The position numbers were made by a program, and so were the translations under genes. This document shows, in pieces, positions 2,940 to 17,862 of a stretch of DNA of 64,000 nt. Every line of letters starts with the position of its first letter. The stretch's first letter is position 1. The DNA is taken from positions 2,466,001-2,530,000 of the forward strand of contig NZ_CP079203.1 of the NCBI RefSeq assembly GCF_019297835.1, given 5' to 3'. The notes under the pieces were generated by a model that had not been told where the DNA came from, made no database searches, and saw nothing but the letters and a program-made list of their open reading frames with translations. Origin of the DNA: Sphingomonas sanguinis. GTDB lineage: Bacteria > Pseudomonadota > Alphaproteobacteria > Sphingomonadales > Sphingomonadaceae.

Positions 2940-3662
2940 ATGACGGGGCTGGTGGACTCTGCGACGGCGATCATGCGCATGGCCGAGCGGCGGCTCGACG
3001 TGGTGGCGCACAATGTCGCCAATATCGCAACGCCGGGTTACAAGCGCCGCATCGGCTTTGCGCAGGCCATGGCGGCCGGATCGGCAATGCCCGCCTCTCC
3101 CGCCGAGGCCATGGTCGAGCTGATGGTCCGCCACGACCGATCGCAGGCCCAGCTGTCGCAGACGAGCAACCCCTTCGATCTGGCGATCAGCGGCGAAGGC
3201 TATTTCCGGGTTCGTGCCGGGGACGGCATCCTCTACACGCGCCAGGGACAATTCCACCGCGACGCCGACGGGCTCGTCGTCAGTCCGCAGGGCTATGTGC
3301 TGCAGCAGGCGGGCGGCGGCGACCTCGTGCTGGACGGCACGACGATGCGCATCCGACAGGACGGAACGGTGCTGGACGGCGAACGGCCGATCGCGCGCAT
3401 CGCCATCGAGACGGGCGCGGATGCGGCGGCGATGACGGCGGTCGGCGAGAGCTTCTATGCCGCGCCGGACGGAACCATGGCCCAGGCCGAGGGCGCGGTG
3501 GTGCGCCAGGGGATGTTGGAAGGCTCCAACGTCACGCTGGGCGACGAGATGACGCAGAGCATGGTCGCGGTGCGCCAGGCGGAGAGCGGGGCGCGGCTGA
3601 TCCAGCTTTATGACGAACTGATCGGACGGGCGGTGAGCGCATTCGGGAGCAGCGGCAAATGA
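2940..3662 (+). CDS. flgF: Flagellar basal-body rod protein FlgF
   Basis: A 240-residue rod/hook-family protein. It has the N-terminal rod signature (LDVVAHNVANIATPGYKRR, residues about 19-37) and a C-terminal helix (LEGSNVTLGDEMTQSMVAVRQAE) that forms the D0 coiled coil of axial flagellar proteins. It is exported without a cleaved signal and forms part of the proximal rod. The start is an ATG after a run of G (AGGGGGGG). It overlaps the next gene by 4 bp and is the first gene of the operon. The FlgF rather than FlgG call rests on its less conserved C-terminus and its position directly before a better FlgG candidate. Confidence 0.85.
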   Translation: MTGLVDSATAIMRMAERRLDVVAHNVANIATPGYKRRIGFAQAMAAGSAMPASPAEAMVELMVRHDRSQAQLSQTSNPFDLAISGEGYFRVRAGDGILYTRQGQFHRDADGLVVSPQGYVLQQAGGGDLVLDGTTMRIRQDGTVLDGERPIARIAIETGADAAAMTAVGESFYAAPDGTMAQAEGAVVRQGMLEGSNVTLGDEMTQSMVAVRQAESGARLIQLYDELIGRAVSAFGSSGK

Positions 3663-4432
3663 GCGACGCCTATTATGTCGGCGCGGTCGGTCTGGGTACG
3701 CAGCAGCGCGCGCTCGACGCGATCGCCAACAACATCGCCAATATCAACACCAGCGGGTTCAAGCGGTCGGAGGTGCGCTTCGCCGATGTCGTCGCCAGCG
3801 GCCCCGATCCGGTCGTCCTGCCCGCCGACCTGCAATCCGCAGCCCCGACGCTGGCGGGGGTCGCGCTGGACCTGCAACTCATGCTCAGCGACCAGGGCGA
3901 ACTGCAGAAGACCGGGGCGTCGATGGACGTCGCCATCGAAGGCGCCGGGTTCATCGAACTGATGGGCGCCGATGGTCGCACGCTGCTGTGGCGTGGCGGT
4001 CGCCTGAAGGTCGGCGAGGATGGGGTGCTGACCGGTGCGGGCGGCTTTGCGCTGAAGGCCGGGATCACCATTCCCGACGACGCGACCGACATCCGCATCG
4101 GCGCCGACGGCACGGTACAGGTGCAGGGCGGCGCGGATGCCGCCCCGGTCGAGGTCGGGCAGATCCGGCTCGTCCGCCTGAACGACATGGCGGACATCGA
4201 ACGCCTCGATGGCGGGCTGTACCGCCTGGCCGAGGATGCGCGGCTGGATGAGGCACCGGCTGGCGAGGATGGCGCGGGGCGGCTGGTCCAGGGTTCGATC
4301 GAGCGCTCCAACGTCCAGCTGACCGACGAGATGGTGCGGATGATGCTGGTGCAGCGCGCCTATGCCGCGAATGCGCAGATCGTCCAAGCGGCCGACCAGA
4401 TGATGGGGATCGCGAACACGCTGCGTCGCTGA
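3659..4432 (+). CDS. flgG: Flagellar distal rod protein FlgG
   Basis: A 257-residue axial protein with the classic N-terminal motif (LDAIANNIANINTSGFKRSE, residues about 19-38). The C-terminal signature SNVQLTDEMVRMMLVQRAYA followed by ANAQIVQAADQMMGIAN is typical of FlgG. It builds the distal rod that crosses the P and L rings. The start ATG overlaps the flgF stop by 4 bp, consistent with translational coupling. A 31-bp gap with a GGGAGAAAGG ribosome-binding site follows before flgA. Confidence 0.88.
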   Translation: MSDAYYVGAVGLGTQQRALDAIANNIANINTSGFKRSEVRFADVVASGPDPVVLPADLQSAAPTLAGVALDLQLMLSDQGELQKTGASMDVAIEGAGFIELMGADGRTLLWRGGRLKVGEDGVLTGAGGFALKAGITIPDDATDIRIGADGTVQVQGGADAAPVEVGQIRLVRLNDMADIERLDGGLYRLAEDARLDEAPAGEDGAGRLVQGSIERSNVQLTDEMVRMMLVQRAYAANAQIVQAADQMMGIANTLRR

Positions 4433-4463
4433 CGCGGGCGCGAAAGGGGGACGGGAGAAAGGC

Positions 4464-5090
4464 ATGATGCTGGTGGCTTTGGCGGCCGGGCTGACGCTCG
4501 TGCCGATGGTGACGGTCGACGCCCGCGACGTGCGGGCCGGGGACCTCCTGCGCGATGGACGGGGACGGCCGCTGGCGGGCGCATCGGCGAAGCGTGTCGT
4601 GCTGCGTCTGCCGGAGGGGCAGCGGCAAATGACGTTGCGCTGGGCGACGGTTGCCGCGCTCGTCCGGCGCAGCGGGTTGACGGTGACGGGCAACGGCCCG
4701 GTGACGATCACCCGCCGCATGGCCGCGCCCGTCGCCGCAACCTGCTGGATCGCCCGCCATGCGCTGGTCGCCGGGCAGACGGTGACCACACGCGATGTGG
4801 AGTCCGGTCCCTGTGGCGGCACGGTCGCCGCGATCGGCGGCGCGAACGGCCAGCCGGTTGTGCGGGTCGCCGTTCCGGCCGGTCGATCGCTGGGCCGGTT
4901 CGCACCCGCCGCAGCGGGACAGGTCGCGCCGGGCACGCCTCTGACCTTGCGGTCGGCCGCAGGCGTGGTGACGATCGAGCGCCCGGTGACGACCCTGCAA
5001 GTGGGACGCTCCGGCCGCCGGGTGTTCGTCCGCGATGCGACAGGACAGGTCTTCGCCGCGCCGCTCGCCCTTCGAGAGGATGCGCGGTGA
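4464..5090 (+). CDS. flgA: Flagellar P-ring assembly chaperone FlgA
   Basis: A protein of 208 residues with a hydrophobic N-terminus (MMLVALAAGLTLVPM) that can act as a Sec signal. Its C-terminal half carries the SAF-type domain of FlgA (CWIARHALVAGQTVTTRDVE at about residues 93-112, then VTIERPVTTLQVGRSGRRVFVRD). FlgA is a periplasmic chaperone that helps FlgI subunits assemble into the P ring. The family is poorly conserved, and the position between flgG and flgH/flgI supports the call. Confidence 0.78.
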   Translation: MMLVALAAGLTLVPMVTVDARDVRAGDLLRDGRGRPLAGASAKRVVLRLPEGQRQMTLRWATVAALVRRSGLTVTGNGPVTITRRMAAPVAATCWIARHALVAGQTVTTRDVESGPCGGTVAAIGGANGQPVVRVAVPAGRSLGRFAPAAAGQVAPGTPLTLRSAAGVVTIERPVTTLQVGRSGRRVFVRDATGQVFAAPLALREDAR

Positions 5091-5638
5091 TCCTGGCCAT
5101 CGCGCTGCTCGCGGCCCCCGTCCCCGACAATCTGTTTCGCGGCAGCGCCTGGAGCGCGCTCGCCAACGACCAGCGCGCGCAGGCCTTGGGCGATGCCATC
5201 ACCATCGTCGTCTTCCAGTCGACCGACGCGCGCAATTCGGCGCAGAACAACAGCCGCAAGGCTACCGATGCCGCCGCCACACTCGACGCCGGAGCGATCG
5301 ATGAACGCGCCCGCGCGACGCTGGGCGGCGGCTTTGCCGGACGCGGCGAGGCGCGGCGCAGCGAACGGCTGGTGACTCGACTGAGCGCGGTCGTCACCCA
5401 GGTCCTGCCCAATGGCGATCTGGTCGTGACCGGGCGGCAGCGTATGGCGATCAACGGCGAGCATACCGAAATCGGCGTGCGCGGGCGTATCCGGGTCGCC
5501 GATATCGGCCCCGACAACAGCGTACTGTCGTCGCGCATCGCCGATGCCGAGATCGATTATGGCGGTCGCGGCTTCGTGACGCGCGGGTCGCGGCCGGGCA
5601 TCATCAACCGGGTCTTCAGCTTCCTGGGGCTGGGCTGA
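5087..5638 (+). CDS. flgH: Flagellar L-ring protein FlgH, without a lipobox cysteine
   Basis: A protein of 183 residues from a GTG start overlapping flgA by 4 bp. The body is a normal L-ring protein: an N-terminal SAWSALANDQRAQALGDAIT block, then VTQVLPNGDLVVTGRQRMAI and GVRGRIRVADIGPDNSVLSS. FlgH is usually an outer-membrane lipoprotein. This one has a very short hydrophobic start (MILAIALLAAPVPDNLF) and no cysteine anywhere, so it cannot be lipidated in the usual way. It may be a non-lipidated variant, or the true N-terminus may lie in another frame. Expected role: the outer-membrane bushing around the rod. Confidence 0.85.
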   Translation: MILAIALLAAPVPDNLFRGSAWSALANDQRAQALGDAITIVVFQSTDARNSAQNNSRKATDAAATLDAGAIDERARATLGGGFAGRGEARRSERLVTRLSAVVTQVLPNGDLVVTGRQRMAINGEHTEIGVRGRIRVADIGPDNSVLSSRIADAEIDYGGRGFVTRGSRPGIINRVFSFLGLG

Positions 5639-6762
5639 TGCGCGCCCTGTTCCTGCTCCTCACGCTGATCGTGGCGCCCCCCGCGCCTGCGCAGACGGTG
5701 CCGATCAAGGCGCTCGGCCGGTTCGAGGGGTGGCGCGAAAATGCGCTGGTCGGTTACGGCCTGGTCGTCGGCCTGTCGGGATCGGGCGATACGCGGCGCA
5801 GCGCCGTCACGCGCCAGGCGTTGCGCAACGTCCTGAATCGCCTGGGCACCAATGTCGCGGAAGCGGAGATCAGCAGCCGCAACGTCGCGGTGGTGATGGT
5901 CACCGGCACGCTGCCCGCCTCCGCCAATGTCGGCGACCGGATCGATGCAAGCATCGCCTCGATCGGGGACGCGCGCAGCCTGGCGGGCGGCACGCTGGTC
6001 ATGACGCCGCTGCTCGGCCCGGACGGCAAGCCCTATGCGCTGGCACAGGGGCCGCTGCTGGTCGGGGGACACCGCTTCGACAGCCAGCTCAACCGCGAAC
6101 AGCGCAACTATCCGACCTCGGCGATCCTGGAGGGCGGCGCGACGATCGAGGCGCCGGTCGACAGCCATATCCTGAAGCCGGACGGAGAGCTGTCCTTCCT
6201 GTTGTCCGACCCCAGCTTCGCCACCGCCGAGCGGATCGCGGCGGGGATCGTCCGCCGCTTCGGCGCGGGCACCGCCTGGGCGCGCAATGCCGATGAGGTG
6301 CGCGTGCGGTTCGCCGGGCCGCCGACCGGCCTGACCGGCTTTCTCGCCGCCCTGGAAGGGGTGACGGTCGAACCAGCGACCCAGCGCCGCGTCGTCATCA
6401 ACGAGCGGACCGGCACCGTCGTCGCGGGCGGCGACGTGACCATCTCGCCCGTCGTCATCGCGCAGGGCGACATCAAGGTATCGGTGGTCGCCGAGAATAT
6501 CGCCTCGCAACCCGATTTCTATGCCGGTTTCGCCAGCGACGTCGTCCAGCCCGGCGCGGGCGTCCGCAGCCTGGTCGTGACCAACACCAGACTGGATGTC
6601 GCGCAAGGCGTCGGCGACCGCGCCTTCCGCTTTCCCAGCACGACCATCGCCGATCTCGTCCAGGGGCTGTCGCGTGCGCGCGTCGATACCCAGCGGATGA
6701 TCGGCATCCTGCAAGCCATCAAGGCCGCCGGCGCGCTGCACGCCGAACTGGTCGTCAAGTGA
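5638..6762 (+). CDS. flgI: Flagellar P-ring protein FlgI
   Basis: A protein of 374 residues, the usual FlgI length. A cleavable signal peptide (MRALFLLLTLIVAPPAPAQT) is followed by the highly conserved N-terminal block with NALVGYGLVVGLSGSGDTRR. Later come RVVINERTGTVVAGGDVTIS and the C-terminal IADLVQGLSRARVDTQRMIG. It forms the periplasmic ring in the peptidoglycan layer around the rod. The ATG overlaps the flgH stop by one base. Confidence 0.95.
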   Translation: MRALFLLLTLIVAPPAPAQTVPIKALGRFEGWRENALVGYGLVVGLSGSGDTRRSAVTRQALRNVLNRLGTNVAEAEISSRNVAVVMVTGTLPASANVGDRIDASIASIGDARSLAGGTLVMTPLLGPDGKPYALAQGPLLVGGHRFDSQLNREQRNYPTSAILEGGATIEAPVDSHILKPDGELSFLLSDPSFATAERIAAGIVRRFGAGTAWARNADEVRVRFAGPPTGLTGFLAALEGVTVEPATQRRVVINERTGTVVAGGDVTISPVVIAQGDIKVSVVAENIASQPDFYAGFASDVVQPGAGVRSLVVTNTRLDVAQGVGDRAFRFPSTTIADLVQGLSRARVDTQRMIGILQAIKAAGALHAELVVK

Positions 6763-6772
6763 GGAGAGAGAC

Positions 6773-7117
6773 GTGGACGCGCTGACCCCGCTGATTATCG
6801 CCAAGGCGTTGGACGGGCTGACCGCGCGGGCGGAGGCGAGCGCGGCCAATATCGCCAATGCCAGCACGCGCGGCTATCGCCCCGTGCGCGTCGATTTCGA
6901 GGACCGCTTGCGCGCCGCCGCCGGGCAGGGCGCGGCGGCGGTCGCGGCGGTCCGGCCCGACCGGGTGACGGCGGTGCTGCCCGCGTTCGGCAACGAGGCG
7001 CGGCTCGACCTGGAACTGGCGACCGCCTCGGCCACGTCGATGCGCTATGCCGCGCTGGTCGATGTGCTGGGCCGCGAGATGGGCCTGATGCGCGCCGCGC
7101 TGGCCGGGGGCCGCTGA
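6773..7117 (+). CDS. flgB: Flagellar proximal rod protein FlgB
   Basis: A 114-residue axial protein starting at a GTG with GAGGAGAGA upstream. It has the rod motif ASAANIANASTRGYRPVRVD near residues 22-41 and the MRYAALVDVLGREMGLMRAA C-terminal helix, matching FlgB in size and layout. It lies 10 bp after flgI and one base before flgC, its usual partner in the proximal rod. Confidence 0.87.
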   Translation: MDALTPLIIAKALDGLTARAEASAANIANASTRGYRPVRVDFEDRLRAAAGQGAAAVAAVRPDRVTAVLPAFGNEARLDLELATASATSMRYAALVDVLGREMGLMRAALAGGR

Positions 7118-7118
7118 G

Positions 7119-7550
7119 ATGCAGGCCGCGCAGATCAGCCGCACCGGGCTGGACGTCGAATGGCAACGGCTTCAGGTCATTGCCCAAAATATCGCCAATA
7201 TGAACACCAGCCGGTCGGCGGGCGGACCGCCCTATCGCGCGATGCGGCTCTTGTCGGGACCGGCCCGCGCGAACGGCGATTTCCGCAATCTGGTGCAGCA
7301 GCGTGACGCGCGCGTCTCCGGCGTGTCGGTGCTGGGGCTGGAGCCGGTCGCGAACGGGGTCCGCCGGGTGCACGAGCCGGGCCATCCGGATGCCGATGCG
7401 CAAGGGTTCGTGACCTATCCCAACATCGACCAGGCGGGCGAGATGGCGCTGATGATCCGCACCGCCCGCTCATACGAGGCGAACCTGACCGCGATGGGCA
7501 TCGCACAACAAATGTACGCCCGCGCGCTCGACCTGGGGAAGCAGCAGTGA
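7119..7550 (+). CDS. flgC: Flagellar proximal rod protein FlgC
   Basis: A 143-residue rod protein with the N-terminal motif VIAQNIANMNTSRS. The central VHEPGHPDADAQGFVTYPNI block is diagnostic for FlgC. The C-terminal helix reads MALMIRTARSYEANLTAMGI. It is exported to form the proximal rod together with FlgB, FlgF and FliE. The stop overlaps the fliE start. Confidence 0.93.
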   Translation: MQAAQISRTGLDVEWQRLQVIAQNIANMNTSRSAGGPPYRAMRLLSGPARANGDFRNLVQQRDARVSGVSVLGLEPVANGVRRVHEPGHPDADAQGFVTYPNIDQAGEMALMIRTARSYEANLTAMGIAQQMYARALDLGKQQ

Positions 7551-7867
7551 CGATCGAGGCCATTCCCCCGCTGGGGAGCGTCGGCGCGTCGCCGCTCGCC
7601 CTGCAACTCAGGCCGGTCAGCCCGCCGCCCGCGACCGCGGCACCGATGGGCGGGTTCGGCGCGATGCTGATGCACGGCATCGGTGCGGTCGACGTCAAGC
7701 TGCAGAGCGCCGACGCGCTCGTCCGCCAGTTCGCGGTGGATGACGGGGTGCCGGTCCATCACGTCACCATGGCGCTGGAGGAGGCGCGGCTGTCGCTCGA
7801 ACTCGCGATGCAGGTCCGGGGCCGTCTGGTCGAGGGCTACCGCGAACTGATGAACATGCAGCTGTGA
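7547..7867 (+). CDS. fliE: Flagellar hook-basal body adaptor FliE
   Basis: A protein of 106 residues from a GTG start that overlaps flgC. The C-terminal half (PVHHVTMALEEARLSLELAM, then QVRGRLVEGYRELMNMQL) is the conserved FliE helix pair that joins the MS ring to the rod. The N-terminal half is proline-rich and less conserved, as is normal for the family. Confidence 0.9.
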   Translation: MTIEAIPPLGSVGASPLALQLRPVSPPPATAAPMGGFGAMLMHGIGAVDVKLQSADALVRQFAVDDGVPVHHVTMALEEARLSLELAMQVRGRLVEGYRELMNMQL

Positions 7868-9114
7868 GCGAGGGGCTTCCTTCGCGCCGCCGTCAGTGGA
7901 TGGTGATCGGCGGCGTCTTTGCGGGCTTCGTCGTGCTGCTGGGCGCGGGTTATTACTGGTTCCTGTCGGGCCATTACACGGTGCTGGCCGATCATGTCCG
8001 GCCGGGCGAGGCGGCGGCGATCGTCGCCGAACTCGACAAGCGCGGCACCGCCTATGAGCTGAAGGACGGCGGGACCACGGTGTTGGTGCCCTCTGCCGAG
8101 GCGGACGCGACGCGGCTGGCACTGGTCCGATCGGACGCGGCGGCCAGCGGGCAGATCGGGTTCGAGCTGTTCAACAAGTCCGACATGGGCCTCACCAACT
8201 TCGCGCAGAAGATCAACTATCAGCGTGCGCTACAGGGCGAACTGGTCCGCACGATCATGCTGATGGACGGGGTCGAGACCGCGCGCGTCCATCTGGCGCT
8301 GCCCGAACGCGCGCTGTTCCGCGACGACCGCACCGAGCCCAGCGCGGCGGTGACGGTGCAGATGCGCGGGGCCACGGCCCCCGATGCGGCGATGGTGGCG
8401 GGTATCCAGAGGCTGGTTTCGGCATCGGTGTCGGACCTGCCCGCCGCGCGCGTCGTCGTGCTGGATGCCGAGGGGCGCGTGGTCAGCCCGGCGGCCATGG
8501 TCGACGCGCCGCAAGGACAGGACCGATCGGTCGAGGGCGGGGCACGCGCGGCGGTGGAGCAATATTATCGCGCCCGTGCCCGCGCGGCGGTCGAGGCGGC
8601 GCGGCCGGACCTGCGCTATCAACTGCGCGTGCTGGCGCTGCCGCAGGCGGACGGCGTGGTCGATCCTGCGCGATGGACGCCCGGCGAAACCGGCGCGGGG
8701 CGCAATTTCCGGTTGCGGATGACGATCGTCACCCCCGCCCCGATCGACCAAGCGGCGCAGGACGCGCTGGCGGCGGCGATCCGGCCCGCCGCCGCGCTGG
8801 ACGATGCGGCGGGCGACGAGCTGGTGTTCGAAACCGGCCCGATGATCGCGGACAGCCCCGCCCCGGCGGTGGCAGACCAAGGTCAGCCGCGCCGTATCGT
8901 CGCCCCGGTCGCGCCGGTGATCGAACCGGTGAAGAGTGGCTGGGAACCATGGTGGCTCTGGGCGAGCGTGGCGGCGCTGATCGCGATCGTGCTGGCGGCA
9001 CGCTTCCGCCCCCAGCCCGCGCGCGACCTGTCGACGGAGGAGCAGGAAGCGTTCGCGCAGACGCTGCGCCGTCAGCTTGCCCTGACCGACGGGGATGGCC
9101 ATGCTGCTCGCTGA
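7864..9114 (+). CDS. fliF: Flagellar MS-ring protein FliF, short C-terminus
   Basis: A protein of 416 residues starting at GTG. It has a first membrane segment at about residues 12-32 and the ring-building motif FELFNKSDMGLTNFAQKINY. The block ALQGELVRTIMLMDGVETAR and the PSAAVTV core follow. The second membrane segment (WWLWASVAALIAIVLAA) lies near residues 360-378. Only about 37 residues follow it, where typical FliF proteins of roughly 550 residues carry a longer cytosolic tail that binds FliG. The periplasmic part is also compact. The MS ring is the assembly base for the export gate and C ring. The reduced tail agrees with the unusual switch proteins in this operon. Confidence 0.9.
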   Translation: MSEGLPSRRRQWMVIGGVFAGFVVLLGAGYYWFLSGHYTVLADHVRPGEAAAIVAELDKRGTAYELKDGGTTVLVPSAEADATRLALVRSDAAASGQIGFELFNKSDMGLTNFAQKINYQRALQGELVRTIMLMDGVETARVHLALPERALFRDDRTEPSAAVTVQMRGATAPDAAMVAGIQRLVSASVSDLPAARVVVLDAEGRVVSPAAMVDAPQGQDRSVEGGARAAVEQYYRARARAAVEAARPDLRYQLRVLALPQADGVVDPARWTPGETGAGRNFRLRMTIVTPAPIDQAAQDALAAAIRPAAALDDAAGDELVFETGPMIADSPAPAVADQGQPRRIVAPVAPVIEPVKSGWEPWWLWASVAALIAIVLAARFRPQPARDLSTEEQEAFAQTLRRQLALTDGDGHAAR

Positions 9115-9427
9115 GGACCCGCTCGCCCTGCTGATCGAACGGCTGCGTGGCCTGTCGCCCGCCGACCGGCGCGCGATCCTGTCGCGGCTGAGCGCACCCG
9201 AGCGGCGCCGGGTCGATGCCGCGCTGCATGCGCCCGCGCGAGGGACGGCACAGAGCTTCGCGACCGATATCATGGCGCGCATCACAGCCGCGCCGACCGA
9301 TACGACGATGACCGCTTCCGCGCGCCAGGTGCTGCTCCGCGTGGCGGGTGGCGCGGTGCCGGTCGAGGCCCCGCGCCGCAGCCCGTCGCTATTCGCACGG
9401 CTCGGCGATGCGTTTCGGCGGGGTTGA
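9095..9427 (+). CDS. Unknown 110-residue protein in the fliG position
   Basis: This small protein sits exactly where fliG is expected, between fliF (20-bp overlap) and fliH (4-bp gap). The N-terminal half is helical (LLIERLRGLSPADRRAILSR, then LSAPERRRVDAAL), slightly reminiscent of an armadillo-like FliG repeat. The rest is short and basic, ending SLFARLGDAFRRG. FliG proteins are about 330 residues with a charged torque domain that is clearly missing here. It may be a vestigial FliG, a FliF-tail partner or an unrelated assembly factor. I do not recognise it with confidence. Confidence 0.6.
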   Translation: MAMLLAEDPLALLIERLRGLSPADRRAILSRLSAPERRRVDAALHAPARGTAQSFATDIMARITAAPTDTTMTASARQVLLRVAGGAVPVEAPRRSPSLFARLGDAFRRG

Positions 9428-9431
9428 GCGC

Positions 9432-10109
9432 ATGGCGGTGATCAAACAGGCCGAGGGCATCCATGGCGTGCGTCAGCTCGCGGGTCCGCCGCCGCTGACC
9501 GCCATTCTGATCGATCCGCGTGACGAGGCGATCGCGCTGCTTCAGGCCGAGCGCGACACGCTGGCAGCCCAACTGGCGGAGGCGGGGGACCGCATCGCCC
9601 GGGCCGACACGCAGGCGCGCGACCATATCGGTGCCGCGCGCGAGGAGGCGCTGTCCGAAGGGCGCCGCGCCGGTCTGGCCGCCGCCGAAACGCGGGAGGC
9701 GGAACGTGTCGCCGCGATCGCGCGGGGCGTGACCCAGGCCTTGGCGCAGTTCGACGCGCGGCTGTCCGCCACCGAGGGGCTGGCTGCGGCCCTGGCCCGC
9801 GCCTGTCTGGACCGCGTGTTCGCGCAGCCCGATGCGACGGCGGCGATGGTGACGCAGGCGCTGGCCCGCCACTTCGCCACCTTGCGCGACGACGCCGTGG
9901 TGACGGTGCGGGTCAGCGGGGCCGATTTCTCCGATGGCGAGGCGCTTGCGGCGGCGGTTCGTGATGGCGCGCGCGCGACCGTCGCGATCGACCGCCACCT
10001 GCCCTCCGGCGCGTGCCGGGTCGAGGCGCGGCTCGGGCAGGTCGCGCTGGACGTGCCCGAGCAATGGAGCGTGCTCGCGCGACTGCTCGACGAGATGGCG
10101 GCCGCATGA
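9432..10109 (+). CDS. fliH: Flagellar export ATPase regulator FliH
   Basis: A protein of 225 residues from an ATG at 9432. A charged coiled-coil N-terminal half (QAERDTLAAQLAEAGDRIAR, then AREEALSEGRRAGLAAAETR) leads to a C-terminal FliH/HrpE-like domain with VAIDRHLPSGACRVEARLGQ. FliH holds the ATPase FliI at the export gate and C ring. It lies immediately before fliI with a 4-bp overlap. Overall identity in this family is low, so the call rests on architecture and position. Confidence 0.82.
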   Translation: MAVIKQAEGIHGVRQLAGPPPLTAILIDPRDEAIALLQAERDTLAAQLAEAGDRIARADTQARDHIGAAREEALSEGRRAGLAAAETREAERVAAIARGVTQALAQFDARLSATEGLAAALARACLDRVFAQPDATAAMVTQALARHFATLRDDAVVTVRVSGADFSDGEALAAAVRDGARATVAIDRHLPSGACRVEARLGQVALDVPEQWSVLARLLDEMAAA

Positions 10110-11416
10110 CGGCGCACCCCTTTCTGGCGCGGATCGCCGGGGCCGAACTGGCGGTGCCTTACGGCGAAGTTCGCCGCGTCCTGCCCGGCCGGATGGAGGC
10201 GAGCGGCCCCATGGCGGCGGTGGGCGATTTGTGCCGGGTCGGCCCAGCCGGGCAACTGGCCGAGGTCGCGGCGGTGGGCGAGGACGGGCTGGTGCTCGTG
10301 CCCGTGGAGGATGGCGCGCCGGTGCCGATCGGCGCACGGGTGCTGCCTGCGCCGCATGGCGGACAGGCCGGGGTTGGCGACGGCTATGGCGGTCGCGCGA
10401 TCGATGCGCTCGGCCGCCCGCTGGACGGCGGTGCGGCGATCCGGGCGACGAAATATCGGTCGGCGCGGGGCGTTACGCCGGGAATGCTGGAGCGGACCGC
10501 GCCCGACACGGTCCTGGAAACCGGCATTCGGGCGATCGACGCGCTGCTGACGCTGGGCAAGGGGCAGCGGATCGGCATCTTCGCGGCCAGCGGCGTGGGT
10601 AAGACCAGCCTGGTCGAACAGCTCGTCGCGCAGGTGTCCGCCACCCGCCATGTCCTGTGCCTGGTCGGCGAGCGGGGCCGTGAGGTCGAGGGATTCTGGC
10701 GCCTGCTGTCGCACCGGGCCGACGCCGGTCGCTGCACGCTGGTCGCCGCCACCTCCGACGAGAGCGCGGCGATGCGCGCGCGGTGCGTGTCGACCGCTTT
10801 GTGCCTGGCCGAATATTGGCGCGATCGCGGCGAGCATGTGCTGCTGGTCATCGACTCGGTGACGCGGCTGGCCATGGCGTTGCGCGAGATCGGATTGGCG
10901 GCGGGCGAGCCACCCACGGTGCGCGCCTATACCCCCAATGTCTTCGCGGCCCTCCCCCGCATCGTCGAGCGGTGCGGCGCGGTTCGCGCGGGCGGGGCGA
11001 TCACGGCGGTGATGACGGTGCTGAGCGAAACCGACGAGGTGGACGATCCCATCGTGGAGACGATGAAGTCGTTACTCGACGGGCATATCCTATTGTCGCG
11101 GGGGCTGGCCGATCAGGGCCATTTCCCCGCCATCGACGTGACGCGCAGCATCAGCCGTCAGGCTGCCCGCCTCGTCACGCGCGACCATGCCGCCGCTGCC
11201 CGCGCCGTCGCAGGCCAAGTCGCGACCTATGACGAGGCGCGGGTGATGATCCAGAGCGGCATCTATCAGACAGGCACCAGCGCCGCGATCGACGCCGCCA
11301 TGGCGGGGCGCGAGGCACTCAACGCCTTTCTGCGACAGGGCCAGGACGAACGCAGTGCCATCACCGAGACGGTGCGGCGACTGTCCCTGCTCGGTCGGGG
11401 AGGGCGGCATGGCTGA
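10106..11416 (+). CDS. fliI: Flagellum-specific export ATPase FliI
   Basis: A 436-residue F1-like ATPase. Walker A is at about residues 156-165 (AASGVGKTSL) and Walker B near residue 247 (HVLLVIDSVTRLAMA). The type III ATPase signatures GERGREVEGFW and DGHILLSRGLADQGHFPAID are present. It energises unloading and export of flagellar substrates at the cytoplasmic face. The ATG overlaps the fliH stop by 4 bp. Confidence 0.96.
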   Translation: MTAHPFLARIAGAELAVPYGEVRRVLPGRMEASGPMAAVGDLCRVGPAGQLAEVAAVGEDGLVLVPVEDGAPVPIGARVLPAPHGGQAGVGDGYGGRAIDALGRPLDGGAAIRATKYRSARGVTPGMLERTAPDTVLETGIRAIDALLTLGKGQRIGIFAASGVGKTSLVEQLVAQVSATRHVLCLVGERGREVEGFWRLLSHRADAGRCTLVAATSDESAAMRARCVSTALCLAEYWRDRGEHVLLVIDSVTRLAMALREIGLAAGEPPTVRAYTPNVFAALPRIVERCGAVRAGGAITAVMTVLSETDEVDDPIVETMKSLLDGHILLSRGLADQGHFPAIDVTRSISRQAARLVTRDHAAAARAVAGQVATYDEARVMIQSGIYQTGTSAAIDAAMAGREALNAFLRQGQDERSAITETVRRLSLLGRGGRHG

Positions 11417-11852
11417 CCCCGCGGTAGCGATGCTGGCCGATTGCCTGAGCGCGGCGCGCGCACGCGTGGATCGCGCGGAGATGGACCACGCCGCCGCGAT
11501 CCGTGCGGCGACTGCGGCAAAGGCGGCGCGCGATGCGGCGCAGGCGGCGCTGTTCGTGGCCGAGGCGGCATGGCATCGCCAGATGGCGGACGGGTTCGAT
11601 CCCATGCTGGGAGGTCTTCTGGCGCAGGACGTGCGGGCGCGGGCGGCGGTTCTCGCCGATGCCGACACCACACAGACGCAAGCGGAACGGGAGGCGGCGC
11701 GCACCGCCGCGACCTGGCAGGGCGAGGAGGCCCGCCGCCGGGCGGTCGAGGCGCTGGCGACCACCGCGCGCCGTCGCGCCCGACACCGCGCCGACGAGCG
11801 GCTGCTTGCCACGCTTGCGGATCGCGAGACGTTTCGCCGGAGCGTACGGTGA
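11409..11852 (+). CDS. fliJ: FliJ-like coiled-coil export protein
   Basis: A 147-residue protein, almost entirely alpha-helical and rich in Ala, Arg and Glu (for example ERAEMDHAAAIR-like heptads and EEARRRAVEALATTARRRAR). It starts at the ATG at 11409, inside the last 8 bases of fliI. Size, coiled-coil composition and position directly after fliI match FliJ, the stalk protein that couples the ATPase to the export gate. Family sequence conservation is weak, so this is a positional call. Confidence 0.65.
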   Translation: MADPAVAMLADCLSAARARVDRAEMDHAAAIRAATAAKAARDAAQAALFVAEAAWHRQMADGFDPMLGGLLAQDVRARAAVLADADTTQTQAEREAARTAATWQGEEARRRAVEALATTARRRARHRADERLLATLADRETFRRSVR

Positions 11853-12565
11853 TCCCGCCGCTGACCGATGCCGCTTTGGGCGGCGCCCCGATCCCGCCGC
11901 CCGTCGTCGCGGGCGAGGCATCGCCGCGCTTCGCCGATTTTCTGGGCGCGGCACGAGCGGCGGCCACGGCTTCGGACAATCCGCCGGATACGCCGGACAC
12001 GCAGGCGCGCCTGTTCAATCAGGACGGCTTTTTCGGACAGGCGCAGCCATGGGCGATGGCAAACCCCGTACAGCCGGTCGCCGCGCTTCAGCCCTCGCCG
12101 ATCGCCGTCGAGGATGGCGAAACCACGATTGCGGTGGAAGCGACGCCATCGGTGCCGGATCATGGCCCCGAACGGACGGCCGGACGGAATGGGTTGGTCC
12201 CGCTTCCCGATCCCGTCGTGGCGGGATCATCCCATGTCGTCAGGTCCGACACGCGATCCCCCGCGCGGGCCGTGCAGCTTCCGCCGACTCCGCCCCGCCC
12301 GGTCGAGCAGGCACCTCCCGGCCGCGCGCCGAGTGCTCCGGCACCGGTCCAGCGCCCGGCTCCACCGCCCAATGCCATGGTCGCCGTCGCGCTGCACGGT
12401 ACGGCACGCGGGATGGAGGTCGCCGCGCAGGTCGCCGGTCTCGACGATCGCGACCGCGCGGCGCTGGCCGACGAGGTCGCGGCCCTTCTCTGTGCGCATG
12501 GCTACGCACCCGCGCGCATCGCCGTCATCGCGGCCACGCACGCCGCCCATCGGGATCCTCGCTGA
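11849..12565 (+). CDS. fliK: FliK-like hook-length control protein
   Basis: A 238-residue protein from a GTG overlapping the fliJ stop. The N-terminal two thirds are low-complexity and rich in proline and alanine (for example ARAVQLPPTPPRPVEQAPPG). A short structured C-terminus (MVAVALHGTARGMEVAAQVA, then LADEVAALLCAHGYAPARIA) follows. This disordered-ruler plus small C-domain layout and the location before flgD fit FliK, which measures hook length and switches export specificity. It is shorter than typical FliK proteins, and I see no strong diagnostic motif. Confidence 0.65.
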   Translation: MIPPLTDAALGGAPIPPPVVAGEASPRFADFLGAARAAATASDNPPDTPDTQARLFNQDGFFGQAQPWAMANPVQPVAALQPSPIAVEDGETTIAVEATPSVPDHGPERTAGRNGLVPLPDPVVAGSSHVVRSDTRSPARAVQLPPTPPRPVEQAPPGRAPSAPAPVQRPAPPPNAMVAVALHGTARGMEVAAQVAGLDDRDRAALADEVAALLCAHGYAPARIAVIAATHAAHRDPR

Positions 12566-13014
12566 TGCAGACCACTTCCATCACCCCGACAGGCCAGGGC
12601 GCGGCGGCGGCGTCCGCCGACACCGGCACGAGCCAGGCGGCGTCCAGCGCCTTCGGGCTGGGTTTCGACGCGCTGCTCAAGATCATCCTGACCCAGCTGA
12701 CCTATCAGGACCCGCTGAAGCCGATGGACAATTTCCAGTTCGTCTCGCAGCTCGCGCAGTTCAGCCAGGTGCAGCAGGGTCAGGCGACCAACGACCGGCT
12801 GCAGGCGCTGGTCAGCGCGCAGGCGGCGAATCAGGCGACCGGGCTGCTCGGGCGGCGGGTCGACATCCCGGCGGGGTCGGCGACGCTGTCGGGCACCGTC
12901 ACGGCGATCGCGCTGTCGGGGGGCACGCCAACGCTGACCATCGAGACCGACGACAAGCGAACGGTGAGTGGCATCGCGATCGGCAGCATCGCGCAGGTCA
13001 GGGAGAAGAAATGA
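12565..13014 (+). CDS. flgD: Flagellar hook cap protein FlgD
   Basis: A 149-residue protein with the strongly conserved FlgD motif FDALLKIILTQLTYQDPLKP, then MDNFQFVSQLAQFSQVQQ (residues about 33-70). The remainder, LLGRRVDIPAGSATLSGTV, is a shortened tudor-like region, and the FnIII part of longer FlgD proteins is missing. It caps the growing hook. The ATG shares one base with the fliK stop, and the stop overlaps flgE by 4 bp. Confidence 0.93.
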   Translation: MQTTSITPTGQGAAAASADTGTSQAASSAFGLGFDALLKIILTQLTYQDPLKPMDNFQFVSQLAQFSQVQQGQATNDRLQALVSAQAANQATGLLGRRVDIPAGSATLSGTVTAIALSGGTPTLTIETDDKRTVSGIAIGSIAQVREKK

Positions 13015-14192
13015 TGTTCGGTGCGATCTATGTCGGCCTGTCCGGCCTCAACGCCTATTCCAAGGGCCTGCAACAGGTCAGCAACAACGTTGCGAACCTC
13101 AACACCACGGGGTTCAAGGGCGCGACGGTCAGCTTCCGCAATCTGTACGGCCAGTCGGATCGCGGGGGCATGGCGATGACCGGCCAGGGGGGCAGCGGCG
13201 GCCATGGCGTCGCGGTCGATGACGGCACGCTCAACTTCAAGCAGGGCGAACTGCGCACCACCGACCGCGACCTGGACCTGTCGGTCGACGGCAACGGTTT
13301 CCTCGTGCTGCTCGACGGCGACCGGACCCTGTACGCCCGCACCGGCAGTTTCGAGGTCGATACCAACGGCTATATCGTGATGACGGGGACCAGCTATCGG
13401 CTGGCGACGCTGGACGGGGACGGCCGTGCCGTCAGCCTGTCGATCGACAGCCGCCGCACCAGCGCGCCCCGGCCGACCGCCACCGTGACCTTCGCCGACA
13501 ATCTGTCGTCCAGCGCGTCCGCCTTCACGGTCGGCGATATCAAGGTGTTCGATGCCAGCGGCACCGCGCATGGCTGGACCGCCAAATTCACCAAGGATGC
13601 CTCGGCCGGAACCAACGCCTGGTCGATCGCGGTGACCGACGACAAGGGTAGCGCGATCGGCACCCAGACGCTGAAATTCGCGGGCGGTTCGGTCGATCCG
13701 ACCACGACCAGGCTGGATTTCACCGACAAGGCATCCGGCCTGACCGTCGCATTCGACTTTTCGAGCGGCGTCACCTCCTTTTCGGGCGGTGACGTGTCGA
13801 CGCTGCGCGCGGCCAAGGTCGACGGCTATGGAGCGGGCACGGTGACGGGGCTGGCGGCGGATACCGGCGGGCGCCTCCAGCTTTCCTATTCCAACGGGCA
13901 GAAGGTCGATCTGGGCGCGATCGCCTTGGCCGATTTCCGCGACCCCGCCGCGCTGGAACAGCGCGACGGGGTGTTCGCAGCGGCGCGAGATGCGCAGCAC
14001 ATGCTGCTCGCCAGCGAGGACCCGCGGGTCGGACAGGTCCGCTCGAAGCGGCTGGAGGCGTCCAATGTCGACCTGTCGCAGCAATTCGGCGACCTGATCC
14101 TGATCCAGCGCGGATTCCAGGCGGCATCGCAGATCGTCAGCGTCTCCAACGACATGATCCAGCAGCTGTTCGGCATCCGGGGGCAGGGATGA
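13011..14192 (+). CDS. flgE: Flagellar hook protein FlgE
   Basis: A protein of 393 residues. The N-terminal hook signature is GAIYVGLSGLNAYSKGLQQV followed by SNNVANLNTTGFKGATVSF. Central variable domains contain many Ser/Thr/Asp residues. The C-terminal helix LEASNVDLSQQFGDLILIQR, then GFQAASQIVSVSNDMIQQL, is also typical. Two in-frame ATGs (13011 and 13014) are possible. It polymerises into the hook. The stop overlaps the next gene. Confidence 0.94.
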   Translation: MMFGAIYVGLSGLNAYSKGLQQVSNNVANLNTTGFKGATVSFRNLYGQSDRGGMAMTGQGGSGGHGVAVDDGTLNFKQGELRTTDRDLDLSVDGNGFLVLLDGDRTLYARTGSFEVDTNGYIVMTGTSYRLATLDGDGRAVSLSIDSRRTSAPRPTATVTFADNLSSSASAFTVGDIKVFDASGTAHGWTAKFTKDASAGTNAWSIAVTDDKGSAIGTQTLKFAGGSVDPTTTRLDFTDKASGLTVAFDFSSGVTSFSGGDVSTLRAAKVDGYGAGTVTGLAADTGGRLQLSYSNGQKVDLGAIALADFRDPAALEQRDGVFAAARDAQHMLLASEDPRVGQVRSKRLEASNVDLSQQFGDLILIQRGFQAASQIVSVSNDMIQQLFGIRGQG

Positions 14193-14929
14193 CGCCCGGC
14201 GCGCGCACCTGGTTGCCGGTCGATACCGTGCCGCCCGCGTCGCTCCGTGCGCTGCTGGCGGAGGTGGTCGAGCCATGGTCAGCACGCTGGTTCGCGGGCG
14301 AGGGGCTGCGTCTGTCGTCGCTGCGGCGCGAGGGCGGCGGGCCGTGGTCGTGGCGGTCGCTGGATGCCGGGCTAATGCTCGGCACCACGGCCGATACCAT
14401 GGCGCGGATCGGCGCGCGGATGCTGGGGGTGGATGCCGAGGACCGCGCCGCGCCCGACCGCGCCTTGCTGGAGGAGGTGGCGGAGGACTGCCTCGTCGAT
14501 CTGCGGGCGCGGTTGGCGCAGGTCGTCGCCATGGCCCCCGACGCCGAGTGGCGACCGGTCGTGCGCACCACCAGCTGGGTCGCGACGATCGGCACAGCGC
14601 CGCTGTCACTCGGGATCGCGCTGACCGACACGCTGTTCGCGCAACTCGTACTGCGCGTGCTCCCGCCCGCCCCTGCCGGTCCGCTCGGCTCGGGCATGAC
14701 CGCGCTGGCCGCGACGCCGGTGACGGTGAGCGCGGCGGTCGGCCGGGCCGAACTCAGCGTCGCCGATCTTCGGGCGCTGGAGATCGGCGACGTGATCGTG
14801 CTCGACCGCCCGCTCGCCGAGCCGGTGCCCCTCGCGGTCGATGGCCACGCCCTGCCACGCGGCACCGCCCGCATCGTCGCCGCCGAGCCGCCCTTTCTCG
14901 ACATCGTCCAGGCCGCAACCCCAGCATGA
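14189..14929 (+). CDS. FliM-like SpoA-domain protein (reduced motor switch protein)
   Basis: A protein of 246 residues in the fliM position, directly before fliN with overlapping stop and start. The last about 80 residues (SAAVGRAELSVADLRALEIG, then DVIVLDRPL) fold-match a SpoA (FliM/FliN C-terminal) domain. The middle part resembles a diverged FliM CheC-like domain. Typical FliM is about 330 residues and begins with a CheY-binding helix of the type LSQDEIDALL. No such helix is visible here, and the first residues are MTPGARTWLPVDTVPP. It may build a C ring that does not respond to CheY. Confidence 0.7.
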   Translation: MTPGARTWLPVDTVPPASLRALLAEVVEPWSARWFAGEGLRLSSLRREGGGPWSWRSLDAGLMLGTTADTMARIGARMLGVDAEDRAAPDRALLEEVAEDCLVDLRARLAQVVAMAPDAEWRPVVRTTSWVATIGTAPLSLGIALTDTLFAQLVLRVLPPAPAGPLGSGMTALAATPVTVSAAVGRAELSVADLRALEIGDVIVLDRPLAEPVPLAVDGHALPRGTARIVAAEPPFLDIVQAATPA

Positions 14930-15210
14930 GCATATCCGTGACAGACACCATCACCCCCATCACGCCCCGCGTCAGTGCCAAGCTGATCGACACGGTCGAA
15001 GTCGCGCTCGACGCCTTTCTGGGGAGCAGCCGGATGAACGTCGGCGCGCTGACCGCGCTGACACCGGGATCGGTCGTCACGCTCGATGCCGCGCTCAACC
15101 GGCAGGTGGAGCTGCGCCTGAACGGCGTCGCGGTCGCGCGGGGCGAGCTGGTCGCGGTGGGCGAGAGTTTCGGGGTCCGTCTCGCCGAGATCGTCGAATG
15201 GCCGCAATGA
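14926..15210 (+). CDS. fliN: Flagellar motor switch protein FliN
   Basis: A 94-residue protein that is essentially one SpoA domain: VSAKLIDTVEVALDAFLGSS, then LTALTPGSVVTLDAALNRQV and FGVRLAEIVEW. FliN forms the bottom of the C ring and a docking site for the FliH-FliI complex. The start overlaps the FliM-like stop by 4 bp, and the stop overlaps fliO. Confidence 0.85.
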   Translation: MSISVTDTITPITPRVSAKLIDTVEVALDAFLGSSRMNVGALTALTPGSVVTLDAALNRQVELRLNGVAVARGELVAVGESFGVRLAEIVEWPQ

Positions 15211-15551
15211 GCCTGGTGACGATGCTCGCCGCCGCGCCCGCCCGGCTGGGTGGTGGCGGGGCGCTCGACGTGTCGCTGGGGCGGATCGTGTCGGCGCTGC
15301 TCGTCTGCCTGTTGCTGGCCGGTGGCGTGGCATGGCTGTTGAAGCGGGGCGGCGGCCGGATCGACTGGGCGGCGCTGAAGCCGCTGAACGCGGTGCCCGC
15401 GCGCCGGATCGCGCTGATCGAGACGCGGCGGATCAGCGCCCATGCCGATATCTGCCTGTTCCGCTGCGACGACGAGGCTTTCCTGATCCTGTCGTCGGCG
15501 ACCACCCAGCGCGTGCTGCGCCGCGGCCCCGCACGCGCGGATCAGTCATGA
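15207..15551 (+). CDS. fliO: FliO-like export gate assembly protein
   Basis: A protein of 114 residues starting at ATG 15207 (an in-frame ATG at 15198 is possible). One membrane segment (IVSALLVCLLLAGGVAWLL) is followed by a small cytoplasmic domain with the typical FliO pattern RIALIETRRISAHADICLFR and CDDEAFLILSSATTQRVLRR. FliO promotes assembly of the FliP pore. It overlaps fliN and fliP by 4 bp each. Confidence 0.82.
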   Translation: MSLVTMLAAAPARLGGGGALDVSLGRIVSALLVCLLLAGGVAWLLKRGGGRIDWAALKPLNAVPARRIALIETRRISAHADICLFRCDDEAFLILSSATTQRVLRRGPARADQS

Positions 15552-16216
15552 ACGCGCTAGCCGTCGCCGCACCGCTGGCGGGCGGGATCATCGGCAACGA
15601 CGTCGTTCGCACCGCGCTGATCCTGACCCTGCTGGCGGTCATCCCCGCCATCGTCATCAGCATGACCAGCTTCGTGCGCACGGTCATCGTGCTGTCGATG
15701 GTCCGCCATGCCTTCGGGATGCCGGAGACGCCGCCCAACCCGGTGCTGATCGCGCTGGCGTTGTTCCTGACCGCCTTCACCATGTCGCCGACGCTGACCC
15801 GTATCAACGCCGACGCGCTGCAACCGATGATGGCCGGGCGGATCGGCGTGGAGCAGGCGCTGGCGGCGGGCGTCGCCCCGTTGCGGCGCTTCATGCTGGC
15901 GCAGACCCGCGACGCCGATCTCGAATCGATCTACGCCATCGCCAAGACGCCGCTGCCGCGCCGGGCGGAGGATGTCGAAACGCTCAAGCTCGCCCCCGCC
16001 TTCATCCTCAACGAGCTGCGCGTGTCGTTCACGATCGGCTTCGTGATCCTGCTGCCCTTCCTGCTCATCGATCTGGTCGTCGCCTCGATCCTGTTGGCGC
16101 TGGGCATGATGATGGTGCCCCCGGCGACGATTTCCCTGCCGATCAAGATCCTGATGTTCGTCCTGATCGATGGCTGGGGTCTGGTCCTCCAGGGGGTGCT
16201 CGGCAGCTTTCGATGA
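15548..16216 (+). CDS. fliP: Flagellar export gate protein FliP
   Basis: A 222-residue, four-helix membrane protein with the FliP signatures MTSFVRTVIVLSMVRHAFGM, LALFLTAFTMSPTL, AFILNELRVSFTIGFVILLP and DLVVASILLALGMMMVPPAT. It forms the core of the type III export channel with FliQ and FliR. Those two genes do not follow here, which is unusual because fliP, fliQ and fliR are normally adjacent. Confidence 0.95.
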   Translation: MNALAVAAPLAGGIIGNDVVRTALILTLLAVIPAIVISMTSFVRTVIVLSMVRHAFGMPETPPNPVLIALALFLTAFTMSPTLTRINADALQPMMAGRIGVEQALAAGVAPLRRFMLAQTRDADLESIYAIAKTPLPRRAEDVETLKLAPAFILNELRVSFTIGFVILLPFLLIDLVVASILLALGMMMVPPATISLPIKILMFVLIDGWGLVLQGVLGSFR

Positions 16217-16965
16217 AAGGGCGGGCGATGAAGGCGCGCGCGGGTCTGGACATCGTCGTGGTGCCGCCGCGCGTGGAGGCGTCGCTGTGGCGGCGGCTTC
16301 GCTTCGAGAAGGAGGCGGGGTGCCGCCAGCTGATCTTCACCCGCTATCGCGCGCTCGCCCGCGCCATCGCCCGGCGACAGCATGGCCGCCGCCCACCGCA
16401 TGGGGCCGAACTGGGCGACATGGAGCATTTCGCTTACCAAGGCCTGCTCCAAGCGATCGACCGCTATGATCCGCTGCGCGGCATCCCGTTCGGCGCCTTT
16501 GCCCGGCGGCGGATCGTCGGCAGCGTGGCGGACGGCGTGGCGCGGATGAGCGAGATCGACGCCGCCTGGTGTCAGCGCCGCCGACAGGAGGTCGACCGCG
16601 CCCGCTCGCTGACCGACGCCGAACCCGAGGATGCCGATCCGGTGGCGGCGCTCGCGGCGCTGGCGGCGGGGCTTGCGCTCGGGATCATGATCGAGGGCAG
16701 CGCGATCCCGGTCGGCGAGGACGCCCCCGACCCGCGCCCCGATGCCTATCAGAGTCTCGCATGGCGCGAACTCCAGGTGCTGATCGCGCGCGGCATCGCC
16801 GAACTGCCCGAGCGCGAGGGCTGGATCATCCGCCAGCATTACGAGGCGGGGGTCAGCTTTACCCAGATCGCCGACCTGCTCGGCCTGACCAAGGGCCGGG
16901 TGTCCCAGATTCACGCCGCCGCGATCGGCCGGTTGCGACAGCGCTTAAATGGCTACAGGAGATGA
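16213..16965 (+). CDS. fliA: Flagellar sigma factor FliA (sigma-28 family)
   Basis: A protein of 250 residues. Region 2 is visible at about residues 35-110 (GLLQAIDRYDPLRGIPFGAF, then ARRRIVGSVADGVARM). Region 4 is at about residues 185-247 (ELPEREGWIIRQHYEAGVSF, then TQIADLLGLTKGRVSQIHAA). The region between them is Ala/Asp-rich and poorly conserved. It directs RNA polymerase to late flagellar promoters. The ATG overlaps the fliP stop, so the sigma factor is made from the same transcript as the basal body genes. No FlgM anti-sigma gene is recognised nearby. Confidence 0.88.
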   Translation: MKGRAMKARAGLDIVVVPPRVEASLWRRLRFEKEAGCRQLIFTRYRALARAIARRQHGRRPPHGAELGDMEHFAYQGLLQAIDRYDPLRGIPFGAFARRRIVGSVADGVARMSEIDAAWCQRRRQEVDRARSLTDAEPEDADPVAALAALAAGLALGIMIEGSAIPVGEDAPDPRPDAYQSLAWRELQVLIARGIAELPEREGWIIRQHYEAGVSFTQIADLLGLTKGRVSQIHAAAIGRLRQRLNGYRR

Positions 16966-16969
16966 TGTC

Positions 16970-17533
16970 ATGCTGATGTGCGGTGACGAAGACATGGCGC
17001 GGCTGATCGCGGTGGCGGAGACCGGCACGGGCGAAGAGATCGGCTTGGCCGAGCGGCTGATCGACGCCTATCCCGACGATGCGCGGCTGCATTTCCTGCG
17101 CGGATCGTTCCTGGCGGGCAGCGCGCGGCCGATCGAGGCGCATGCGTCGCTGTCGCGGGCGGTGGCGCTGGCCCCGGACTTTCACCTTGCCCGCTTCCAG
17201 CTCGGATTTTTCGAGCTGACGTCCGCCGAACCCGCGCGGGCTCTGGCGACGTGGGAGCCGCTATCGACGCTGCCCGAGGATCATTATCTGGCGCATTTCG
17301 TCGCCGGGCTGACGCATCTGATCCATGACCGTTTCCCGGAGGCGATCCGCGCCCTGGACGCCGGGATCGCCGCCAACATGGAGAACCCGCCGCTCAATCG
17401 CGACATGGGCCTCATCATCGAACAATGCGGCGGACTCGTCGCCAAGCCAGCGGCGGAGGCGCAGCCGGTCGAAGAGGCGTCGGCGACGTCGTTCCTGCTG
17501 GGTCAGCTGGGTGGGAGGGGGCCGACGCCGTGA
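16970..17533 (+). CDS. TPR-repeat protein of the flagellar operon
   Basis: A 187-residue protein with tandem tetratricopeptide-like helices (ARLHFLRGSFLAGSARPIEA, then HASLSRAVALAPDFHLARFQ). It ends in a short disordered tail. The ATG at 16970 is preceded by AGGAG at 8 bases. An upstream ATG at 16949 would overlap fliA and is less likely. TPR proteins of this size act as chaperones or scaffolds, including class II chaperones in type III secretion. A role in substrate handling is an inference from position only. Confidence 0.75.
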   Translation: MLMCGDEDMARLIAVAETGTGEEIGLAERLIDAYPDDARLHFLRGSFLAGSARPIEAHASLSRAVALAPDFHLARFQLGFFELTSAEPARALATWEPLSTLPEDHYLAHFVAGLTHLIHDRFPEAIRALDAGIAANMENPPLNRDMGLIIEQCGGLVAKPAAEAQPVEEASATSFLLGQLGGRGPTP

Positions 17534-17862
17534 CCCGGATTATCGGCGCCGAGCATGTCCTGCTGTTGCTGCGCGAGAAGCTGGCCAGGGCGGGGCAGCG
17601 GCGCGCCGGTCCGTCGGCCGCCGCGCGGACCGATCCGCGCCCCCTCGACCGGCTGCGGGCGATGGCGGGTTTCGACGCGCTGGGCGAGGAGGAACGGCGG
17701 CGCGCGGTGGTCCACGCGCTGCTCGCCGAGGAGCTGGGCGATGCGGTCGCCAATGACGCGGCGTTCGGCGCAGTGCTCGACGACGTGTTGCGCATCATCG
17801 CCGAGATGCCGGGCGGCGGCGCGATGATCGACCGCGCCGCCATGGCCCTGCGCGACGGTTGA
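17530..17862 (+). CDS. Unknown 110-residue protein, last gene of flagellar operon
   Basis: A small soluble helical protein starting from a GTG that overlaps the TPR gene stop by 4 bp. No signal peptide or membrane segment is present. The sequence LDRLRAMAGFDALGEEERRR followed by AVVHALLAEELGD suggests a helical bundle. I do not recognise the family, and it is not an obvious FlgJ, FlgN or FlgM. Tight coupling to the operon suggests a flagellum-related role. Confidence 0.6.
   Translation: MTRIIGAEHVLLLLREKLARAGQRRAGPSAAARTDPRPLDRLRAMAGFDALGEEERRRAVVHALLAEELGDAVANDAAFGAVLDDVLRIIAEMPGGGAMIDRAAMALRDG

Follow-up and report, generated by a model that had tools for sequence, protein, structure and literature searches.

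A torque-less flagellar-type operon of Sphingomonas sanguinis as a probable non-rotary secretion system

Introduction

What can a flagellar machine be for when its switch complex is cut down? The question is raised by the window analysed here, a stretch of 64,000 nucleotides of Sphingomonas sanguinis DNA (NZ_CP079203.1, positions 2,466,001 to 2,530,000), in which a second flagellar-type operon has its core at positions 7864-15210; the ordinary flagellum of the same genome lies 0.66 Mb away. The first-pass annotation, made from the letters alone, had proposed an unswitched or non-rotary flagellum, or one using a separate FliG. We find that the locus is real and conserved, that "torque-less" is a fitter description than "FliG-less", and that the operon is best explained as a flagellum-derived, non-rotary type III secretion system (T3SS), to which we give a probability of about 0.8.

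Results

Reduced switch proteins

Three genes of the operon depart from their ordinary flagellar forms:

7864..9114, + strand, fliF, shortened, with a cytoplasmic tail of 37 residues (YscJ_FliF 7.4e-52, PF08345 unmatched; same-form kin in 16 more family genomes; alignment)
9095..9427, + strand, X, probable shortened FliG-like adaptor, torque domain not recognised (no Pfam hit at cut-off; profile and fold likeness to FliG)
14189..14929, + strand, FliM-like protein with one SpoA domain and no FliM middle domain (FliMN_C in relatives, PF02154 in none)

FliF has 416 amino acids, of which 37 follow the last hydrophobic helix, as the first reading had estimated; its ring domain is kept and PF08345 is unmatched, and the FliFs of this system from the beta and gamma classes do match PF08345. 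A tryptophan close to the end ('.W[LI]', the 'WL' motif) is present in 35 of the 36 ordinary FliF tails printed, all but that of this genome. Of the 20 tails from this system, W stands at that position in only three, those of the basal Hahella, Lacisediminimonas and Polaromonas; the other 17 have a '.eRe.fa.rLr.lL'-type helix. The estimate of about 246 residues for the FliM-like protein was also accurate (246 amino acids), and FliMN_C is its sole Pfam domain. Its relatives match FliMN_C in 26/26 cases and PF02154, the FliM middle domain, in 0/26; in ordinary motors this middle domain is the part that binds FliG. SctQ and FliM models were matched below their cut-offs, within the SpoA part, and conserved R.WLP / W..WF residues were seen at the N-terminus, the site of the CheY-binding helix in FliM.

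The ordinary flagellum provides the controls. Its cluster, at about 3.13-3.16 Mb, contains full-size FliF, FliG and FliM, MotA/B, FlgK/L and two of the three flagellins of the genome (the third flagellin gene, G000 C1 1505146-1505553, is distant from both flagellar clusters). In the Pfam search, ordinary FliG matched FliG_N, M and C, ordinary FliM matched PF02154 and ordinary FliF matched PF08345, whereas none of these domains was found in the window counterparts. With 603, 337 and 325 amino acids and full domains, ordinary FliF, FliG and FliM also show that the short proteins are not the typical sphingomonad form. The single FliG_C of the genome belongs to this cluster, as does MotA_N. The two systems are far apart: 15 of 27 proteins match gene calls of the ordinary cluster, at 25-50% identity.

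Protein X at the fliG position

The 110-amino-acid protein X (9095-9427) overlaps fliF and occupies the usual place of fliG. It lies between fliF and fliH in all 16 other family loci, and 28 of the 30 named-record loci have an open frame of 85-195 amino acids at this position, so X is not a chance frame. The shortest of these frames (L125, 85 amino acids) was excluded from the alignments, and in the two loci where no frame was found (L114 and L122) the sequence ends just past or within fliF; X was found wherever the locus is complete.

X has no Pfam match at cut-off, and the window and Caballeronia X proteins were both unmatched in NCBIfam. Comparisons by profile and by fold point to a cut-down relative of FliG but are not proof. 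Using a profile of three basal X proteins, 42 FliGs were placed at ranks 2-39, 41, 51, 55 and 57 among 452 open reading frames, and the best FliG scored 20.6 bits, while 30 shuffles reached 7.7 at most. With hhalign, the basal X set matched FliG 11-203 at P 0.0019, compared with 0.075 or weaker in nine comparisons with other alignments. Matching stretches that scored 3 bits or more (n=117) fell on FliG N (52), M (64) and C (1). In the fold search with a Caballeronia X model, FliG occupied rows 1-13, with likeness to FliG M or C, and the rows shown included no SctK-type injectisome adaptor. One X member gave a weak FliG_C match (E 0.12). In the reverse search, a FliG profile against 30 X proteins gave no E below 0.046, and the sequence link is therefore visible mainly from the X side. 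X measures about 160-195 amino acids in Hahella, Lacisediminimonas and Polaromonas and 110 here. The earlier statement that this protein replaces FliG may thus be literal, the replacement looking like a shortened and only remotely similar FliG.

Distribution and carriers without a motor

We surveyed 397 genomes of the family (sphingomonads, to judge by relatives with names). At E<=0.001, 263 of them gave a match, and the short FliF was found in 17, including this genome, from 12 genera; the next-ranked genome (G048) has an ordinary system with FliG. Gene set and order are nearly the same across the 17 carriers and in other classes, apart from an inverted flgH-flgI in L067, some small genes missed by BLAST and several loci cut by contig ends. 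FliG_C is present in 9/17 carriers, and none was found above cut-off in the operon. In the other eight (5 genera; completeness 92-100%), FliG_C, Flagellin_N (flagellin/FlgL) and MotA_N are all unmatched genome-wide, and the operon still has the genes for rod, rings and hook together with fliI and fliP; flhA was found in 7/8 and fliQ in 6/8, with the remaining copies past the contig ends or outside the stretches retrieved. These carriers support the proposal of an unswitched or non-rotary flagellum and make a separate FliG unnecessary. A third MotA_ExbB hit in genus g66, read in 2/3 genomes, adjoins a further short membrane protein and seems to be a proton channel of another kind.

Beyond the family, the operon occurs in Caulobacterales, Burkholderiales, Luteibacter and Hahella. 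Among the matches listed, the named loci come from Sphingomonas, Sphingorhabdus, Novosphingobium, Brevundimonas, Asticcacaulis, Paraburkholderia, Burkholderia, Caballeronia, Polaromonas, a Luteibacter metagenome-assembled genome (MAG) and Hahella. The 50 remaining loci among those matches comprise 42 with FliG, two of the X type (L147, L154) and six ending near fliF; in 35 of the 42, FliG lies within 60 bases of the upstream frame read as FliF. Thirty genomes of the 31 named loci were searchable, and 27 contain FliG_C; FliG_C and MotA_N are both unmatched in Sphingorhabdus sp. Alg239-R122, Polaromonas sp. A23 and the Lacisediminimonas MAG. The named and family sets are not fully independent, as Alg239-R122 is apparently G144, and L116 and L133 equal G240 and G189 (identical FliI). 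In the FliI tree (84 rows), the 47 rows that belong to this system all fall on one side of a branch supported at 98/89, with long branches. A plasmid search with Caballeronia FliF at 1e-60 gave no match.

Operon layout

The gene order at 2940-17862 is flgF-G-A-H-I-B-C, fliE-F, X, fliH-I, fliJ-like, fliK-like, flgD-E, fliM-like, fliN, fliO-like, fliP, sigma, TPR, Y, and fliQ-fliR-flhB-flhA with a second TPR gene lie directly upstream of the window (L006). The genes not listed above are:

2940..5090, + strand, flgF, flgG, flgA, rod and P-ring chaperone (FlgF/FlgG by Pfam; FlgA by position, without Pfam match)
5087..7867, + strand, flgH, flgI, flgB, flgC, fliE, L/P rings and proximal rod (Pfam: FlgH 1.8e-42, FlgI 3.7e-101, FliE 5.5e-18; FlgB slightly below cut-off)
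9408..11852, + strand, fliH, fliI ATPase, fliJ-like (FliH 2.8e-5, ATP-synt_ab 3.6e-75; fliJ by position, without Pfam match)
11858..12565, + strand, fliK-like, start uncertain (by position; Pfam unmatched)
12565..14192, + strand, flgD (hook cap) and flgE (hook) (FlgD 4.2e-19; Flg_bbr_C and FlgE_D2)
14926..15210, + strand, fliN, SpoA (FliMN_C 5.6e-18)
15207..16216, + strand, fliO-like and fliP (FliP 9.1e-70; fliO by position)
16213..16965, + strand, FliA/WhiG-type sigma factor of the operon (TIGR02479 1e-26, under its cut-off; recurrent in the operon)
16949..17533, + strand, conserved TPR protein (recurrent in the operon)
17530..17862, + strand, Y, conserved 110-amino-acid protein, family unknown (16 aligned)

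Pfam families were matched for FlgF/G/H/C/E, FliE, FlgI, FlgD, FliH, FliI, FliN, FliP, FliQ, FliR, FlhA and FlhB, and the operon therefore contains a flagellar rod, P/L rings and hook as well as the type III secretion core, that is, the FliPQR-FlhAB export gate and the FliI ATPase. The view that the rod, ring, hook and ATPase genes are all normal is borne out only in part; the FliK-, FliJ-, FliO- and FlgA-like products had no Pfam match at E<=0.01 and are named by position. The NPxH pattern of FlhB is present in this genome and in 13 of the 16 named loci having flhB. Y is found 3' of the TPR gene in loci of the alpha class and has no convincing Pfam match.

For regulatory sites, the strict sigma-28-like pattern was found upstream of flgF in only 1/14 loci (L118), and relaxing the pattern to 2 mismatches across the window yielded one plus-strand site far from the operon and five minus-strand sites, two at 2752 and 17567. 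An exact palindrome, TGTCCCATNNNGGGACA, stands just 5' of or at the flgF start in three loci (L109:5233, L114:5019, L115:5017) and is a possible operator; looser forms were seen elsewhere by eye.

Giant RHS-repeat neighbour

Just upstream of the window, a giant RHS-repeat gene of 4,594 amino acids (G000 C1 2445429-2459210, minus strand) diverges from fliQ across a gap of about 200 bp (L191/L006). Such a gene (about 3,400-4,600 amino acids) was found in 11/16 carriers examined beyond the operon, over 24-90 kb each; of a further carrier, G219, only 10.9 kb was seen. In nine of the 11 an operon gene is no more than about 0.5 kb away, in one with Y between, and in two the distance is 5-7 kb. It was not found in G065, G083, G222, G182 and G189, the last two on short contigs. 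Among the eight motorless genomes it is present in five, with none in the three of genus g66. When stretches of equal length (mostly about 20 kb) were compared, the N-terminal motif was found in 5/51 system loci and 0/53 controls; counting a longer own stretch gives 6/52, the contrast being smaller at equal length. In 30 named loci, the motif was found only in L117, and RHS-like ends lie upstream of flgF in L110 and L114. A second giant YD-repeat frame was also seen near the operon in L201 (G191) and L213 (G091).

The giant proteins have the make-up of RHS polymorphic toxins, with RHS repeats, a constant N-terminus and a variable C-terminus: in 45 pairs of 10 proteins, median identity was 48% over the first 250 amino acids and 9% over the last 120. 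The N-terminus is signal-less, with the motif 'MVAIFTG'. The copy in this genome matched RHS_repeat (9.4e-31) and DUF6531, and no PAAR match was found in its first 300 amino acids; none of the Rhs-core models matched. Its C-terminus looks HNH-like by eye, without a Pfam hit. Eight C-terminal pieces were scanned, giving one Col-Pyo DNase (a relative), one weak M91 peptidase and six unmatched. The DNase end is similar to the end of a type VI secretion effector, and these RHS proteins may instead be delivered by a type VI secretion system.

A search of 72,556 plasmids with the N-terminus returned six records, three with the operon close by and three with none within 20 kb. The latter are L221, L222 (Eleftheria terrae) and L223 (Undibacterium sp. 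KW1), whose giants are either orphans or served by another replicon. One operon-bearing plasmid, from Undibacterium sp. YM2 (L189 1-5223), has in place of RHS a 38.8-kb tandem-95 repeat gene near the operon, with an N-terminus related to the RHS giants. The linkage of RHS genes to the operon is strong, not exclusive, and the status of the RHS toxins as cargo of the machine is something that we infer from gene linkage.

Discussion

We favour a non-rotary secretion system because the gate, ATPase, rod, rings and hook are kept without a recognisable FliG torque domain and persist in genomes without a match to MotA, flagellin/FlgL or FliG_C, and because Lysobacter enzymogenes, with the same FliF tail type, is reported to export foreign flagellin without flagella. 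In the mechanism that we propose, X would be the leftover of FliG, clasping the new short helix of the FliF tail and docking the FliM-FliN ring and FliH/I, so that export would be retained with no stator able to push on the ring. Proteins would be exported through a hook-like tube, with switching by self-cleavage of FlhB, and the machine would be under its own FliA-type sigma factor. The adjacent giant RHS-repeat proteins would be the best cargo candidates.

A structural hook-basal body that does not secrete, serving as a surface anchor, adhesion hook or nanotube base, is an unlikely but serious alternative. Basal bodies without a filament occur elsewhere, the hook and rings are retained here, and a late substrate in the operon is not known; yet the NPxH site of FlhB and the sigma factor are kept, as one would expect of a two-stage export programme, and RHS genes adjoin in 11 of the 16 carriers examined. 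It is very improbable that the operon encodes a second true rotary flagellum borrowing the ordinary system's FliG, stator and filament. This genome has ordinary FliG, MotA and flagellins, and FliG_C is present in nine of the 17 carriers, but eight carriers have nothing to borrow, and the FliF tail without the usual motif and the FliM without its middle domain also argue against such a partnership. We find it hardly credible that the operon is a functionless, decaying leftover: parts have been lost, occurrence is patchy (17/397), and on the Undibacterium plasmid flgI is annotated as two pieces and fliH is displaced, but the structural genes in the window are open, gene set and order are near-constant in the 17 carriers and other classes, the system takes one side of a branch in the FliI tree, and the operon is retained in genomes without FliG_C, flagellin and MotA.

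Going beyond non-rotary secretion itself, we tentatively suggest, at somewhat less than even odds, that the operon represents a third T3SS branch, in which a flagellum without a torque ring is used as a weapon exporting giant signal-less RHS toxins via the rod-hook conduit. The targets would probably be neighbouring bacteria, and the TPR proteins and Y would serve as chaperones or regulators. A causal RHS link would mean a new delivery route for giant toxins. More broadly, the operon points to a natural split of flagellar secretion from rotation in three proteobacterial classes, may preserve stages of FliG reduction (X from about 160-195 to 110 amino acids), and bears on the interconversion of rotary motor and secretion machine. 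In our literature query, this operon type was unreported except in the Lysobacter work; RHS and flagella together lay outside the query. What is new here is the giant RHS gene recurrently beside the operon, with its signal-less, shared N-terminus.

Comparison with known systems

The giant neighbours resemble RHS polymorphic toxins in their repeats, conserved N-terminus, variable C-terminus and, in two cases, toxin domains; they differ in the signal-less 'MVAIFTG' N-terminus, the position beside the operon, the lack of a Rhs-core match and, in the first 300 amino acids of the copy in this genome, the lack of a PAAR match. The hook-basal bodies of Buchnera have no filament or stator, like this system, but are an endosymbiont reduction that retains FliG, unlike this system.

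A close likeness in the literature is the flagellar T3SS of Lysobacter enzymogenes, whose FliF (P0163, P0181) is 45% identical to the Luteibacter FliF of this system and has the same tail signature. According to the available excerpts, 15 Lysobacter genomes lack fliG, fliM, motA/B, flgK/L, fliC and fliD, as well as flgB and fliE, both of which the window operon has, and a role of the system in twitching is described (PMC9927559, PMC7277350). In the non-flagellated L. enzymogenes, export of foreign flagellin depended on flhB and fliI, as the excerpt states (PMC7277350). X and the RHS link are unmentioned in these excerpts. The Flag-3 loci of Enterobacterales, considered as a further candidate, have 46/47 genes of an ordinary system in the excerpt available and hence are not this operon (PMC7526173).

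With the rotary flagellum, the operon shares the MS ring, rod, P/L rings, hook, FliP/Q/R-FlhA/B gate, FliH/I, FliN and a FliA-type sigma factor, and it differs in the missing FliG_C and FliM middle domain, the short FliF tail and the 8/17 carriers in which MotA, flagellin/FlgL and FliG_C are unmatched. With the injectisome, the non-flagellar T3SS, it would share non-rotary export, and its SpoA proteins match SctQ models under cut-off; unlike the injectisome, it retains the FlgH/FlgI rings, the rod, the hook and a FliF of the flagellar type.
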